Part shown: positions 1-38,785 of the stretch, in pieces
Layout of the letters: the number at the start of each line of letters is the position of its first letter
How positions within the stretch are numbered: the first letter of the stretch is position 1
Notes under the pieces: generated by a model
Seen by the model: the letters and a program-made list of their open reading frames with translations, nothing else
What the model was told of the DNA's origin: nothing
The model's database searches: none
IMG/VR virus record: IMGVR_UViG_3300028024_000194
Location: 1 to 38,785 of that record
From: a virus
Strand: one strand, 5' to 3'
DNA: 38,785 bases
Translations under genes and position numbers: made by a program

Positions 1-198
1 ATGATACCATATATTAAAATTAAAGAGATAAGGCTAGAAAAGGGATTGACTCAAACCCAGCTTGCAAGATTAGCTAATGTATCTCAAAGTTATCTTTCAG
101 AGTTGGAACATAATAAAAAAAGCCCAACAGTAAGAGAACTTTGTAAAATAGCAGAAGCTCTAAAAGTAGAACTAAGTGAATTGGTTTATTTTTTATAA
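1..198 (+). CDS. Small XRE-family HTH regulator
   Basis: A 65-residue protein that is almost entirely one Cro/CI-type helix-turn-helix domain (about residues 4-60). The recognition region reads LTQTQLARLANVSQSYLSEL and is followed by the usual SPTVRELCKIAEAL helix. Proteins of this size bind operators as dimers and act as Cro-like or accessory repressors. It is transcribed rightward, away from the late genes, and is followed by an RHH gene, so it probably belongs to a lysogeny or conversion module at the late-gene end of the prophage. The ATG is the first base of the window, so its ribosome site and promoter cannot be seen and a longer N-terminus cannot be excluded. Confidence 0.85.
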   Translation: MIPYIKIKEIRLEKGLTQTQLARLANVSQSYLSELEHNKKSPTVRELCKIAEALKVELSELVYFL

Positions 199-8820: not shown

Positions 8821-9507
8821 CTATTGTTCCCATTCTATTAACAATGCACCTGCTGTTCCAGCTGTGCCTACTGAGCCAACTGGTTTAGTGCTCCCTGTGC
8901 CTCCAGTACCTAATGTCCCAGCTGTTCCTATAGTGACAGGTATTACATTACCAGGAGTAACAATTGCGTCAAATTTTGAAACAAATGCTCCGCTTCCTCC
9001 AGCACCTCCACCAGCTCCACCAGAACCACCAGAACCACCAGTACTACTGCCATTACCACCATTACCACCTTTACCATAAGAACACCAATTAACTGTAGCG
9101 GTACCACCATTACCACCAGCTCCACCAGAACCTCCATCTACTCCATTAGCTCCATTCCCACCAGAGAATCCGGCAATTCCATACATCAAACCTGTTATTG
9201 CACCCCCAACACCACCTACTCCGCCTGAACCTGTGCCTGAGGAAACTCCACCTGCTCCACCGTTTCCACCAGCACCCCCATTCACTGACAATAAAGAGCC
9301 AAAACTTGTTACTCCGCCTGCGCCACCGTTTGTTCCAGCACCACCTACTCCGCCACCATAAGCTTGGCCACCACCAGCACCGCCACCACCAGCACCTACC
9401 GCTGTTACTTTAACATTTAATACTCCTGTTGGTACTGTCCAACTACCAGATGAAGTAAATAATACGCTTTTTGTACCATTACTTTGTTGTAATTTACTAA
9501 TTCCCAT
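8821..9507 (-). CDS. Glycine-rich tail fibre / receptor-binding protein
   Basis: A 228-residue protein. The N-terminal 40 residues contain SSGSWTVPTGVLNVKVTAVG, the beta lead-in typical of glycine-rich fibre domains. Residues about 38-195 are dominated by GGxGGAGG runs, as in polyglycine-II bundles at fibre tips (compare T-even gp38). The protein ends in a beta strand, ALLIEWEQ. Such proteins bind the cell surface. The Gly codons make this stretch far more GC-rich than its neighbours, and its opposite strand shows an artificial Pro-rich frame. It begins immediately at the end of the 101-residue gene. Confidence 0.8.
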   Translation of the reverse strand: MGISKLQQSNGTKSVLFTSSGSWTVPTGVLNVKVTAVGAGGGGAGGGQAYGGGVGGAGTNGGAGGVTSFGSLLSVNGGAGGNGGAGGVSSGTGSGGVGGVGGAITGLMYGIAGFSGGNGANGVDGGSGGAGGNGGTATVNWCSYGKGGNGGNGSSTGGSGGSGGAGGGAGGSGAFVSKFDAIVTPGNVIPVTIGTAGTLGTGGTGSTKPVGSVGTAGTAGALLIEWEQ

Positions 9508-35719: not shown

Positions 35720-36499
35720 CTATGCAACCTTATATTTAATAGCCATTTCTTTTACGATAGCTACATAACCTTCAATAAGCTTTTTATCATCTGCAATTAC
35801 ATCTAATGCAGTGAGCTTGTCTCTCTTTGATTTGCAAGCACCTTCGTCTGCCATACGTCTACGTTTATTGGTAATCCTTGTATGAATATCTACGCCGAAT
35901 CTTTCATTAAGCAATTTATAACTTTCTTCTCTTACAGCCTTTATATGATCATATCCCCCAGCATTAAGAGCTATTTTATTTATTAATGCCGTTGTGTCTT
36001 TTCTCCAGCTATTTGGATTAAGAACTATAACATCTCTTATAGCTTGAATTTCTTCTTTAACCTCTGTTGCTTGCTGCTTAGCTTCTTGGACCTGTAATTT
36101 CATGTCCTTCATTTCTTGTAAACTTTGGATTAAAACATCTTCTATGCAGGAAGGTTTATTTTGTCTTGGATTAAAGTAGTTTTCTTCCAATAGCTCGTAT
36201 ATTTCCCAAGCTTCATCTGTTTGAAGAATTTTCGCATGTCTTGCAGCTCCCCTATCTGTCCAAAGATTTAGCACACTTGCAAACTTTATTGAAGGGTCGT
36301 TACAATCAGTTACTACCCTTTTGAACTCTTGTAATTCATCACCTATCAGTTGGTAATAATGCTTGCCTTTTATAAATCTTTCTAAATTTCGGTTGAAGTT
36401 CGTTTTGATGTTTTCTTCTTTTGTTCCATAGGCTTCAGCCAATTGCTTTGTTGTCATTATCCTTTGTTTATTAAACTCTACTGGTATTAAATTATTCAA
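35720..36499 (-). CDS. ORF6N/ORF6C antirepressor
   Basis: A 259-residue protein. ORF6N domain at about 1-100 (LIPVEFNKQRIMTTKQLAEA, then IKTNFNRNLERFIKGKHYYQ), a short coiled coil (about 130-155), and an ORF6C domain at about 165-255 (NKIALNAGGYDHIKAVREES, then RFGVDIHTRITNKRRRMADE). Such proteins are phage antirepressors that counter the CI-like repressor. Start codon TTG after AAGGAGGAAAATAA. It is the third gene of the leftward early operon. Confidence 0.93.
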   Translation of the reverse strand: MNNLIPVEFNKQRIMTTKQLAEAYGTKEENIKTNFNRNLERFIKGKHYYQLIGDELQEFKRVVTDCNDPSIKFASVLNLWTDRGAARHAKILQTDEAWEIYELLEENYFNPRQNKPSCIEDVLIQSLQEMKDMKLQVQEAKQQATEVKEEIQAIRDVIVLNPNSWRKDTTALINKIALNAGGYDHIKAVREESYKLLNERFGVDIHTRITNKRRRMADEGACKSKRDKLTALDVIADDKKLIEGYVAIVKEMAIKYKVA

Positions 36500-36518: not shown

Positions 36519-36824
36519 TTACTTGCTTAGTTGAATATAATTTGACAGTTTAGCACTTTCGGCTAGAATATTTGAAACAATAGTTTTTAATTTTTGATTT
36601 TCAAGTTTAAGTTCCTCATTTTCTTTTTCTAGCCTTCTTCTTTCTAATGGGGAAAATTTTTCCACTTGAGTACCTTCCAATTTTTCTATGTAGTGAAGAT
36701 TGAATCTTATTGCAGGTACTCCTTCGACTTGCTTTAATACACCTTCTTTTCTCCAGTTTTCTATTGCTTTAGTTGTCACTTGCCATCTTTCAGCTAAATC
36801 TTTTTGAGTTAATAGCTTTTCCAT
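36519..36824 (-). CDS. HTH protein with a C-terminal coiled coil
   Basis: A 101-residue protein. Residues 1-50 form a helix-turn-helix (KLLTQKDLAERWQVTTKAIE, then NWRKEGVLKQVEGVPAIRFN) of the MerR/excisionase-like type. A basic and Leu-rich coiled coil follows (LEKENEELKLENQKLKTIVS). It may be an excisionase or an early regulator. It is the second gene of the early operon, between Cro-like and antirepressor genes. Ribosome site AAGGGGGATAAAA. Confidence 0.75.
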   Translation of the reverse strand: MEKLLTQKDLAERWQVTTKAIENWRKEGVLKQVEGVPAIRFNLHYIEKLEGTQVEKFSPLERRRLEKENEELKLENQKLKTIVSNILAESAKLSNYIQLSK

Positions 36825-36835
36825 TTTTATCCCCC

Positions 36836-37033
36836 TTAACTTTGGTAAAATACTTCTGGAACTGATGCATTTAAAGCGAATGATATTCTTTCCATAACAT
36901 CTTTTGTGGGATTGGTATCACCTGTAGAATCATTTTCTAATGTACTGATATATCCTACTGCAACGCTAGATTTTTCGGAAAGCTCTCTAACTGTCATTTC
37001 CAATTTAGTTCTGAGCTCTTTTATTTTATTCAC
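36836..37033 (-). CDS. Cro-like XRE regulator
   Basis: A 65-residue XRE domain: KIKELRTKLEMTVRELSEKS, then SVAVGYISTLENDSTGDTNP and a final helix. It is the first leftward gene, facing the CI-like repressor gene across the operator region. That is the usual place for Cro. Start codon GTG after AAAGGAGATATAAAAA. It probably binds the 15-bp operators. Confidence 0.9.
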   Translation of the reverse strand: MNKIKELRTKLEMTVRELSEKSSVAVGYISTLENDSTGDTNPTKDVMERISFALNASVPEVFYQS

Positions 37034-37082
37034 TTTTTATATCTCCTTTCTTTTATTCGCCGTCAACGAACTTTATATGTGT

Positions 37083-37111
37083 ATAATATCATATTCGATA
37101 CTATCGAACAA
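37083..37111 (-). promoter_or_regulatory. Leftward early promoter
   Basis: On the minus strand TTGTTC (plus 37106-37111) is followed after 17 bp by TATTAT (plus 37083-37088), with TGA before it giving an extended -10. It drives the Cro-like gene and the early operon. Operator 2 lies in the spacer. Confidence 0.75.
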
Positions 37112-37193
37112 AGGCTATTTATGTTCTTTAAAGACGAATAATGCAAACTAGCGTTTGTTTCCTTTAAATTACTTAAAATATTATAAAATTTCG

Positions 37194-37222
37194 TTGACAA
37201 TGAACTTTTTTAATTGTATTAT
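37194..37222 (+). promoter_or_regulatory. Rightward repressor promoter
   Basis: TTGACA (37194-37199), 17-bp spacer, TATTAT (37217-37222), then AGGAG before the repressor ATG at 37255. Operator 4 overlaps the -35 and operator 5 begins three bases after the -10, so repression would be tight. Confidence 0.85.
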
Positions 37223-37254
37223 TGTTCTATGATAATGAACAGGAGTGAAATTTA

Positions 37255-37641
37255 ATGTTGGGTACAAATATTAGAAAAGTAAGAAAAGAGAAGAAAATAA
37301 GCATTAATAAATTATCAGAAATAACAGGTATATCTTTGGGCTATTTAAGTGATTTAGAAAATAATAAAGCTACAAATCCTGCTTTAGAAAAGCTTGAATC
37401 AATTGCTAATGCTTTAGAAATACCATTAAACAAATTATTGTCCACCGAAGAAAAACTAGATATGGCTTTAGGAACTATAGATAAGATTACAACACTAGCA
37501 GAAGAAGCATTGAATGGTTTCGATTCTAAAAATAGTATTTATGGTATAGCTTCACATTTTGATAATGAAACTTTTTCAAAAAATGAGCAGGACGAAATAA
37601 TTAATTTTATAAAGTATGTAATATCTAAAAGAAATGGCTAA
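37255..37641 (+). CDS. CI-like XRE phage repressor
   Basis: A 128-residue protein. An N-terminal XRE domain at about 5-64 (IRKVRKEKKISINKLSEITG, then ISLGYLSDLENNKATNPALE) is followed by a helical C-terminal region (EEKLDMALGTIDKITTLAEE). There is no LexA/S24-type self-cleaving peptidase domain; induction may instead depend on the ORF6N antirepressor. It lies opposite the early operon and upstream of the integrase, the usual place of the lysogeny repressor. Ribosome site AGGAGTGAAATTTA. Confidence 0.88.
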   Translation: MLGTNIRKVRKEKKISINKLSEITGISLGYLSDLENNKATNPALEKLESIANALEIPLNKLLSTEEKLDMALGTIDKITTLAEEALNGFDSKNSIYGIASHFDNETFSKNEQDEIINFIKYVISKRNG

Positions 37642-37690
37642 ATATTTTTACACATAAGTGATTAAATAATTTGTAAAGGAGTAATAGAGT

Positions 37691-38785
37691 ATGCAATACT
37701 CAACCTTAATAAGAAAGAAAGATAAAGGTTATCAATTTATAATTACTTATAAAGTTAATGACAAATGGAAAACTAAAAGTAAACAAGGGTTTAAAAAGAA
37801 AGAAGATGCCAAAACCTCAATGGATAAAGCTCTGGATGAGCTAAAGAAAGAAGTTAAAATTCAACCTGTAGATCCAACTATGGAAGGATTAACCTTCAAA
37901 CAATTTTCTGATATTTATATTGAACATATAAGCTTGTATAGTGAAGTTAATACAATTTTGGCATACAAAACAGTATTAAATAATTTTTCATCTTTAGACA
38001 ATATTGAAATATGTAAAATATCGAATTTAGATATTCAACAATCTATAGATAAATTTATGAAAAAAGGTTTAAATGTGAATACTATTAAAGACTATTTACG
38101 CAAATTAAATACTATCTTTAGAGCTGCAATAGATGAATATAATTTGCTTTACAAAATGCCAACTAAAGGTATTAAAATAGCAAAGGAAAAAGCTGAGATA
38201 ACTAAGAAAGCGTTAAATAAAATGGAGCTTGATAATTTATTTAAAGATTTCATAAAAAGTAAGTATTACCTTCTTTTATTAATTGCAGGAACTTGCGGTT
38301 TAAGATTGGGGGAAATTTTAGGACTAACTTGGAAAGATATAGACTTTAAAAACAACACAATTAAAGTTAACAAACAATGGAAACAAATTAGAATTAATAA
38401 TAAAGAAAGCGAAAAAGCTAATATATTTGACTTTGGAACCTTGAAAAGTAAAAATTCAAATAGAGAAGTTCCTATTCCGCCAAAAACATTAAATGAGTTG
38501 AAAAAATGCTCTAATGTTGTTAATATAGATAATAGAATTTTTAAATTTAACAATACCGATTCAATAAGTATATGTATTAATAGATTGCTTAAAAGAAAGG
38601 GGTACGATATTACAATTCATGAGCTTAGACATACTTATGCCACTATGTTAATAAGTAGCGGAGTAGATTTTAAAACTGCTGCTAAATTGCTCGGGCATAC
38701 TGTCCAGCAAACTATGAAAATTTATAGCCATGTAAATGATGATATGATGAAGCGTGCAACAGGTATAATTGAAAACATTTTTTGA
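37691..38785 (+). CDS. int: Phage integrase, tyrosine recombinase
   Basis: A 364-residue integrase. The N-terminal 60 residues are a basic DNA-binding (arm-type, AP2-like) domain (KDKGYQFIITYKVNDKWKTK). A SAM-like core-binding domain follows (about 70-165). The catalytic domain has R205 (TCGLRLGEIL), K252, H310 and R313 (HELRHTYATM), H336 (LLGHTVQQ) and Y345 (MKIYSHV). It inserts the phage into the host attachment site. It is transcribed with the repressor, and its stop is the last base of the window, so attP cannot be seen. Ribosome site AAAGGAGTAATAGAGT. Confidence 0.96.
   Translation: MQYSTLIRKKDKGYQFIITYKVNDKWKTKSKQGFKKKEDAKTSMDKALDELKKEVKIQPVDPTMEGLTFKQFSDIYIEHISLYSEVNTILAYKTVLNNFSSLDNIEICKISNLDIQQSIDKFMKKGLNVNTIKDYLRKLNTIFRAAIDEYNLLYKMPTKGIKIAKEKAEITKKALNKMELDNLFKDFIKSKYYLLLLIAGTCGLRLGEILGLTWKDIDFKNNTIKVNKQWKQIRINNKESEKANIFDFGTLKSKNSNREVPIPPKTLNELKKCSNVVNIDNRIFKFNNTDSISICINRLLKRKGYDITIHELRHTYATMLISSGVDFKTAAKLLGHTVQQTMKIYSHVNDDMMKRATGIIENIF

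Follow-up and report, generated by a model that had tools for sequence, protein, structure and literature searches.

A conserved operator array of familiar design at the predicted lysogeny switch of a temperate phage

The DNA analysed here, referred to as the window, covers all 38785 bases of a single virus record from IMG/VR. In it, the genes for a small HTH repressor and a Cro-like HTH protein diverge from an intergenic stretch (37034-37254), with genes for an excisionase-like and an ORF6N antirepressor-like protein on the Cro-like side, and a tyrosine integrase gene on the repressor side after a gap of only 49 bp (37642-37690) (Table 1). As the first-pass annotation had stated, the repressor is without a self-cleavage domain (HTH domain only, no match to S24, PF00717), and an ORF6N antirepressor-like gene is indeed encoded, within the predicted early operon; a search of the window record for ImmA (PF06114) likewise gave no match. 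The nearest solved chain is SinR for both the repressor and the Cro-like protein. A third small HTH protein, of the XRE type (65 aa; phrog_3, 7e-17), is encoded at the opposite end (1-198, plus strand).

The intergenic stretch contains five exact matches to the 15-mer motif TTCKNNNNNNNYGAA (TTCK-N7-YGAA), which are the five sites proposed in the first-pass annotation between 37056 and 37239, and their coordinates were found to be exact. They make up five of the 11 distinct places where the motif occurs in the record (13 matches when both strands are counted), and shuffled versions of the whole record contained 4.3 +/- 2.1 matches, with 10 as the largest number. Since the motif was derived from the sites themselves, a look-elsewhere test was run on 37034-37254, covering all 64 three-base half-sites combined with 10 spacers (3 to 12). 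The top combination was TTC-N9-GAA with five sites (Poisson p 5.8e-8), and none of 3000 dinucleotide shuffles contained any half-site/spacer combination as good, which rejects a chance origin of the array. Short palindromes are frequent in AT-rich intergenic DNA, and the repeats might in principle be such chance occurrences or belong to a regulator of the host, for instance LexA, but next to the shuffles and the conservation of the slots in relatives described below we consider this very improbable. Gram-positive LexA boxes read GAAC-N4-GTTC, an orientation opposite to that of TTC-N9-GAA.

The spacings between the five window sites are 38, 30, 66 and 35, and as 66 equals 30+36, the five-site array amounts to an array of six slots, one of them decayed; the decayed slot retains four of the six key bases and is the one addition to the list of the first-pass annotation (S4, Table 1). 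A dyad at 37145-37158 (CAAACTAGCGTTTG) might have represented another type of operator but was set aside, as it consists of a conserved CAAACT beside the decayed S4 half-site. Both promoters, with their inferred start sites, overlap the array; the early promoter was missed by a general promoter scan because its -35 hexamer matches at only 3/6 positions.

Table 1. Genes, promoters and operator slots around the array in the window (slot positions are counted from the site containing the -35 hexamer of the repressor promoter)
Feature	Position	Strand	Description
ORF6N antirepressor-like protein	35720..36499	-	259 aa; Pfam ORF6N PF10543 6.1e-21; phrog_373 anti-repressor 7e-53
Excisionase-like protein	36519..36824	-	101 aa; phrog_7735 1.7e-27
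Cro-like HTH protein	36836..37033	-	65 aa; divergent from repressor gene
Site S1	37056..37070		TTCGCCGTCAACGAA; ~+6 to +20 from inferred early start, just downstream
Early promoter	37083..37111	-	TTGTTC-17-TATTAT, extended -10 (TGA)
Site S2	37094..37108		TTCGATACTATCGAA; perfect 7-1-7 palindrome; occupies -35/-10 spacer of early promoter; slot -96; predicted strongest site
Site S3	37124..37138		TTCTTTAAAGACGAA; between the two promoters; slot -66
Decayed slot S4	37154..37168		TTTGTTTCCTTTAAA; 4/6 key bases; slot -36; not in the first-pass annotation
Site S5	37190..37204		TTCGTTGACAATGAA; includes -35 hexamer of repressor promoter; slot 0
Repressor promoter	37194..37222	+	TTGACA-17-TATTAT; 11/12 matches
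Site S6	37225..37239		TTCTATGATAATGAA; covers inferred repressor transcript start; slot ~+35
Repressor	37255..37641	+	128 aa; HTH domain only; nearest solved chain SinR 4.8e-10
Tyrosine integrase	37691..38785	+	starts 49 bp past repressor stop

Relatives of the locus were not found with single window proteins: the repressor as query gave no relative in viral_contigs and four weak relatives in genome_contigs, none of them with the array, integrase and excisionase queries only gave loci without the array, and no match was obtained when 398 genomes from a single phylum were scanned with a pattern. Scanning viral_contigs with the array pattern gave 56 stretches, most of which resemble coding repeats or belong to other HTH families, and from these the three with the array between divergent HTH genes like those of the window (L060, L072 and L035) were kept; a fourth locus (L091) was added through the promoter pattern. 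An alignment of these four repressors then gave 44 loci by protein, of which the 15 nearest represent 13 distinct records, some of them fragments, as L104 and L105 have upstream regions identical to that of L103 and were excluded from the counts. Counts over 14 loci below refer to the window and these 13 relatives. Arrays resembling TTCG-N7-CGAA were also seen beside other kinds of HTH genes, in phage contigs L028, L039, L034, L049, L054, L069, L073 and L032/L044/L051/L055/L074, which points to a recurrence of such operators in switches that look unrelated.

At least four (four to six) copies of TTC-N9-GAA are present in the 225 bp upstream of the repressor in 12 of the 13 closest distinct records (five copies in L103), the exception being L098 with one exact copy and four 5/6 matches, and none of the 29 more distant records has more than one. 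Nine of the 13 relatives had been reached without any operator pattern, and eight of these nine have at least four sites. In the 12 records and the window, TTC-N9-GAA ranked first among all half-site/spacer combinations. The sites fall into six slots at approximately -121, -96, -66, -36, 0 and +35, and when shifts of up to 14 bases were permitted in all slots except S5, all six key bases were matched in 10 (S1), 13 (S2), 8 (S3), 10 (S4), 12 (S5) and 12 (S6) of the 14 loci, with either S3 or S4 at 5/6 or better in every locus. All six slots are perfect in L060/L095 and L072/L100, and L060 and L072 have identical spacings (25, 30, 30, 36 and 35), which are not whole helical turns, so that cooperativity between neighbouring sites side by side is not evident. 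The window departs from this layout in its fourth slot, which is also missing in its closest relative L091, and in S1, which is displaced outwards by 13 bp compared with the majority of relatives (-134 vs -121).

The promoters show similar constancy. A repressor promoter of the form TTGACA-17-TANNNT, with its -35 hexamer inside S5, is present in all 14 loci, and the early promoter occupies one fixed place relative to S2, where it is the best candidate in 11 of the 14 loci; it ranks second in L100, differs by one base in L106 and falls outside the top two in L098. The placement of the array on the early and repressor promoters, as proposed in the first-pass annotation, is thus supported by the relatives, and judged by sequence conservation the array is real and the window has an ordinary, well-conserved predicted lysogeny switch.

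We estimate a probability of about 85% for the switch model as a whole, in which the array would serve as the immunity operator of a temperate phage, based on the near-palindromic TTC-N9-GAA sites and their fixed slots, the divergent promoters and the HTH regulators on both sides. Repressor dimers on S2, in the spacer of the early promoter, and on S1 just downstream would switch off the early operon, i.e. the genes for the Cro-like protein, the excisionase and the ORF6N protein, and with rising concentration the repressor would also occupy S5 and S6, at its own -35 hexamer and start site, and so cap its own synthesis. The middle slot or slots (S3/S4) may help to connect both halves, through cooperative binding or by forming a short loop. 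The Cro-like protein is predicted to recognise the same half-sites, and would shut the repressor promoter through S5/S6 in lytic growth. Which protein binds which site, and how strongly, is what we infer from these positions and from the half-sites and protein sequences.

The half-sites differ between phages, being TTCG in most, TTCA in L097, TTCTCT in L098, L099 and L106, and mixed in L093. Within a phage they resemble each other more than expected (identity 0.527 vs 0.431 +/- 0.015, with none of 5000 slot-preserving permutations as high, a comparison uncorrected for phage relatedness), and such changes in concert are expected if one protein, or a pair of CI-like and Cro-like proteins, reads all sites. 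Residue 28 of the repressor is Leu in nine of the ten loci with half-sites other than TTCT and in none of the four TTCT loci (Fisher 0.005, uncorrected), an association that fails correction over 63 columns and is equalled by residue 7, so that a code linking repressor residues to bases is only suggestive. In L099, the helix-3 residues KSYLS of SinR are found together with GTTCTCT half-sites, which we take to match the SinR box. With regard to the Cro-like proteins, the association with operator type is weak (the best column reached only 0.014), as might be found if only the repressor bound the array and the Cro-like protein acted by binding the repressor without competing for sites, in the manner of Mor of phage TP901-1, which has an HTH motif yet does not bind DNA alone (PMC11149083). 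As the helix-3 pattern GYxSxLEN is common to repressors and Cro-like proteins, both regulators of the window included, and the Cro-like protein also has SinR as nearest solved chain, we regard such a Mor-like role as unlikely, and favour the sharing of sites by both proteins.

The relatives differ most in the genes which would release repression. An ImmA-like gene directly follows the repressor gene in eight of the 13 relatives in phmmer searches (L092, L095, L097, L099, L101, L102, L103 and L106), and the repressor of L100 carries an S24 domain; in L072 (6477-7148) the HTH of the family is fused to S24 (PF00717, 3.8e-29) next to a complete six-site array. No S24 domain, ImmA-like gene or ORF6N was detected in three relatives (L093, L094 and L098), absences which are soft as some of the relatives' records are fragments, and in L093 and L098 the integrase gene lies within 12 bases of the repressor gene. 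L096 belongs to the 13 relatives and was left outside the module assignment, as its sequence ends at the repressor. Absence judged by PF06114 alone is no proof, since this profile misses the gene in L106 and scores those of L035 and L102 below its cut-off. By these comparisons, one and the same array appears to be combined with a varying derepression module, namely S24, ImmA or none.

For the window, which is without S24 domain or ImmA gene, inactivation might thus come from the ORF6N protein, from a protease acting in trans or by a route like that of TP901-1. The closest relative L091 has the same gene order (identities of 48% for the repressor, 54% for ORF6N and 61% for the integrase), plus an ImmA-like gene of 153 codons at the position of the 49-bp gap in the window. 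Together with the presence of the ORF6N gene in the early operon, this could mean that the ORF6N protein has replaced a lost protease as the normal inducer, a link which the first-pass annotation had implied. This implied link did not hold up: ORF6N is found in three of the 13 relatives (L092, L099 and L102), all three of which have an ImmA-like gene after the repressor, and the three relatives above have neither, so that in this family ORF6N is no stand-in for a missing protease. Moreover, the ORF6N gene is located downstream of the early promoter, the presumed target of repression, and could hardly initiate induction alone, which makes the ORF6N protein a doubtful normal inducer. The window repressor retains the C-terminal tail of the ImmA-linked L091 repressor (48% identical residues in 134 aligned columns that include the tail), in favour of its cleavage by an ImmA-type protease from the host or another prophage, but three other relatives are likewise without a detected ImmA gene, and we think cleavage in trans improbable as well. 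In L091, an open reading frame resembling hypoxanthine phosphoribosyltransferase (8864-9409, named by eye) adjoins the integrase gene, and may belong to the host DNA flanking the integration site.

Taking slots, half-sites and modules together, we tentatively propose, at somewhat below even odds, that the six-slot platform and its HTH and Cro-like readers form a common socket, in which the derepression module (S24 domain, ImmA gene or none) has been repeatedly exchanged, while the half-sites in all slots were retuned together (TTCG, TTCA, TTCTCT) to give new immunity types; the window would then have lost ImmA and would respond to some other inducing signal. Three changes of half-site type and five of module were counted on a 14-row tree, in which none of the 11 inner branches was starred, and with this lack of resolution both counts are weak. 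Since a single switch exists in this family in many natural versions whose sites hardly differ in position, direct comparisons could be made of what each site does, how immunity specificity evolves and how induction modules are exchanged.

Comparison with known systems gave several partial likenesses. SinR of Bacillus subtilis, the nearest solved chain to both window regulators, is a host biofilm regulator, unlike a phage switch. The repressor of Bacillus phage phi105 is 29% identical to that of L060 over 98% of its length and is followed by a Zn-peptidase and a recombinase, but the phi105 intergenic region has no TTC-N9-GAA, and phi105-like operators were therefore rejected. A literature search confined to an open-licence collection gave no description of this operator family. 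With phage lambda the window shares divergent repressor and Cro-like genes and palindromic operators on both promoters, with site sharing by CI-like and Cro-like proteins predicted here, and it differs in that its repressor is without a LexA-like self-cleavage domain and its sites are confined to a single intergenic stretch of ~185 bp. The first-pass annotation had considered five sites unusually elaborate compared with lambda, a view we do not share, as lambda has OL besides OR (PMC11149083) and the ICEBs1 repressor ImmR has six binding regions, with three close to either of its two divergent promoters (PMC4207663). PMC11149083 also describes highly similar operators and CI N-terminal domains for phages TP901-1 and phi13, with the protease domain absent in TP901-1 and present in phi13, and induction of TP901-1 CI through RecA without self-cleavage. 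As in the present family, similar operators would thus serve repressors with and without a self-cleaving domain, although TP901-1-type switches have three operators (OR, OL and OD; three are also given for phi13, PMC8516035), compared with five sites and a decayed slot here. ICEBs1 of B. subtilis resembles the family in its divergent promoters, HTH repressor and six binding regions (vs six slots here), and also in its protease, as ImmR is cleaved by ImmA (PMC6540685) and an ImmA-like protease gene adjoins the repressor gene in eight of the 13 relatives; this likeness is one of published description, and the window differs in having five good sites, one decayed slot and no ImmA gene. Given ImmR and TP901-1/phi13 as precedents, neither the number of sites nor a repressor without protease domain is new, and the array is best described, on its conservation, as a genuine predicted lysogeny-switch operator array of familiar design. 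Of most interest is the pattern across the family, with slots and readers staying constant and half-sites and derepression modules changing.
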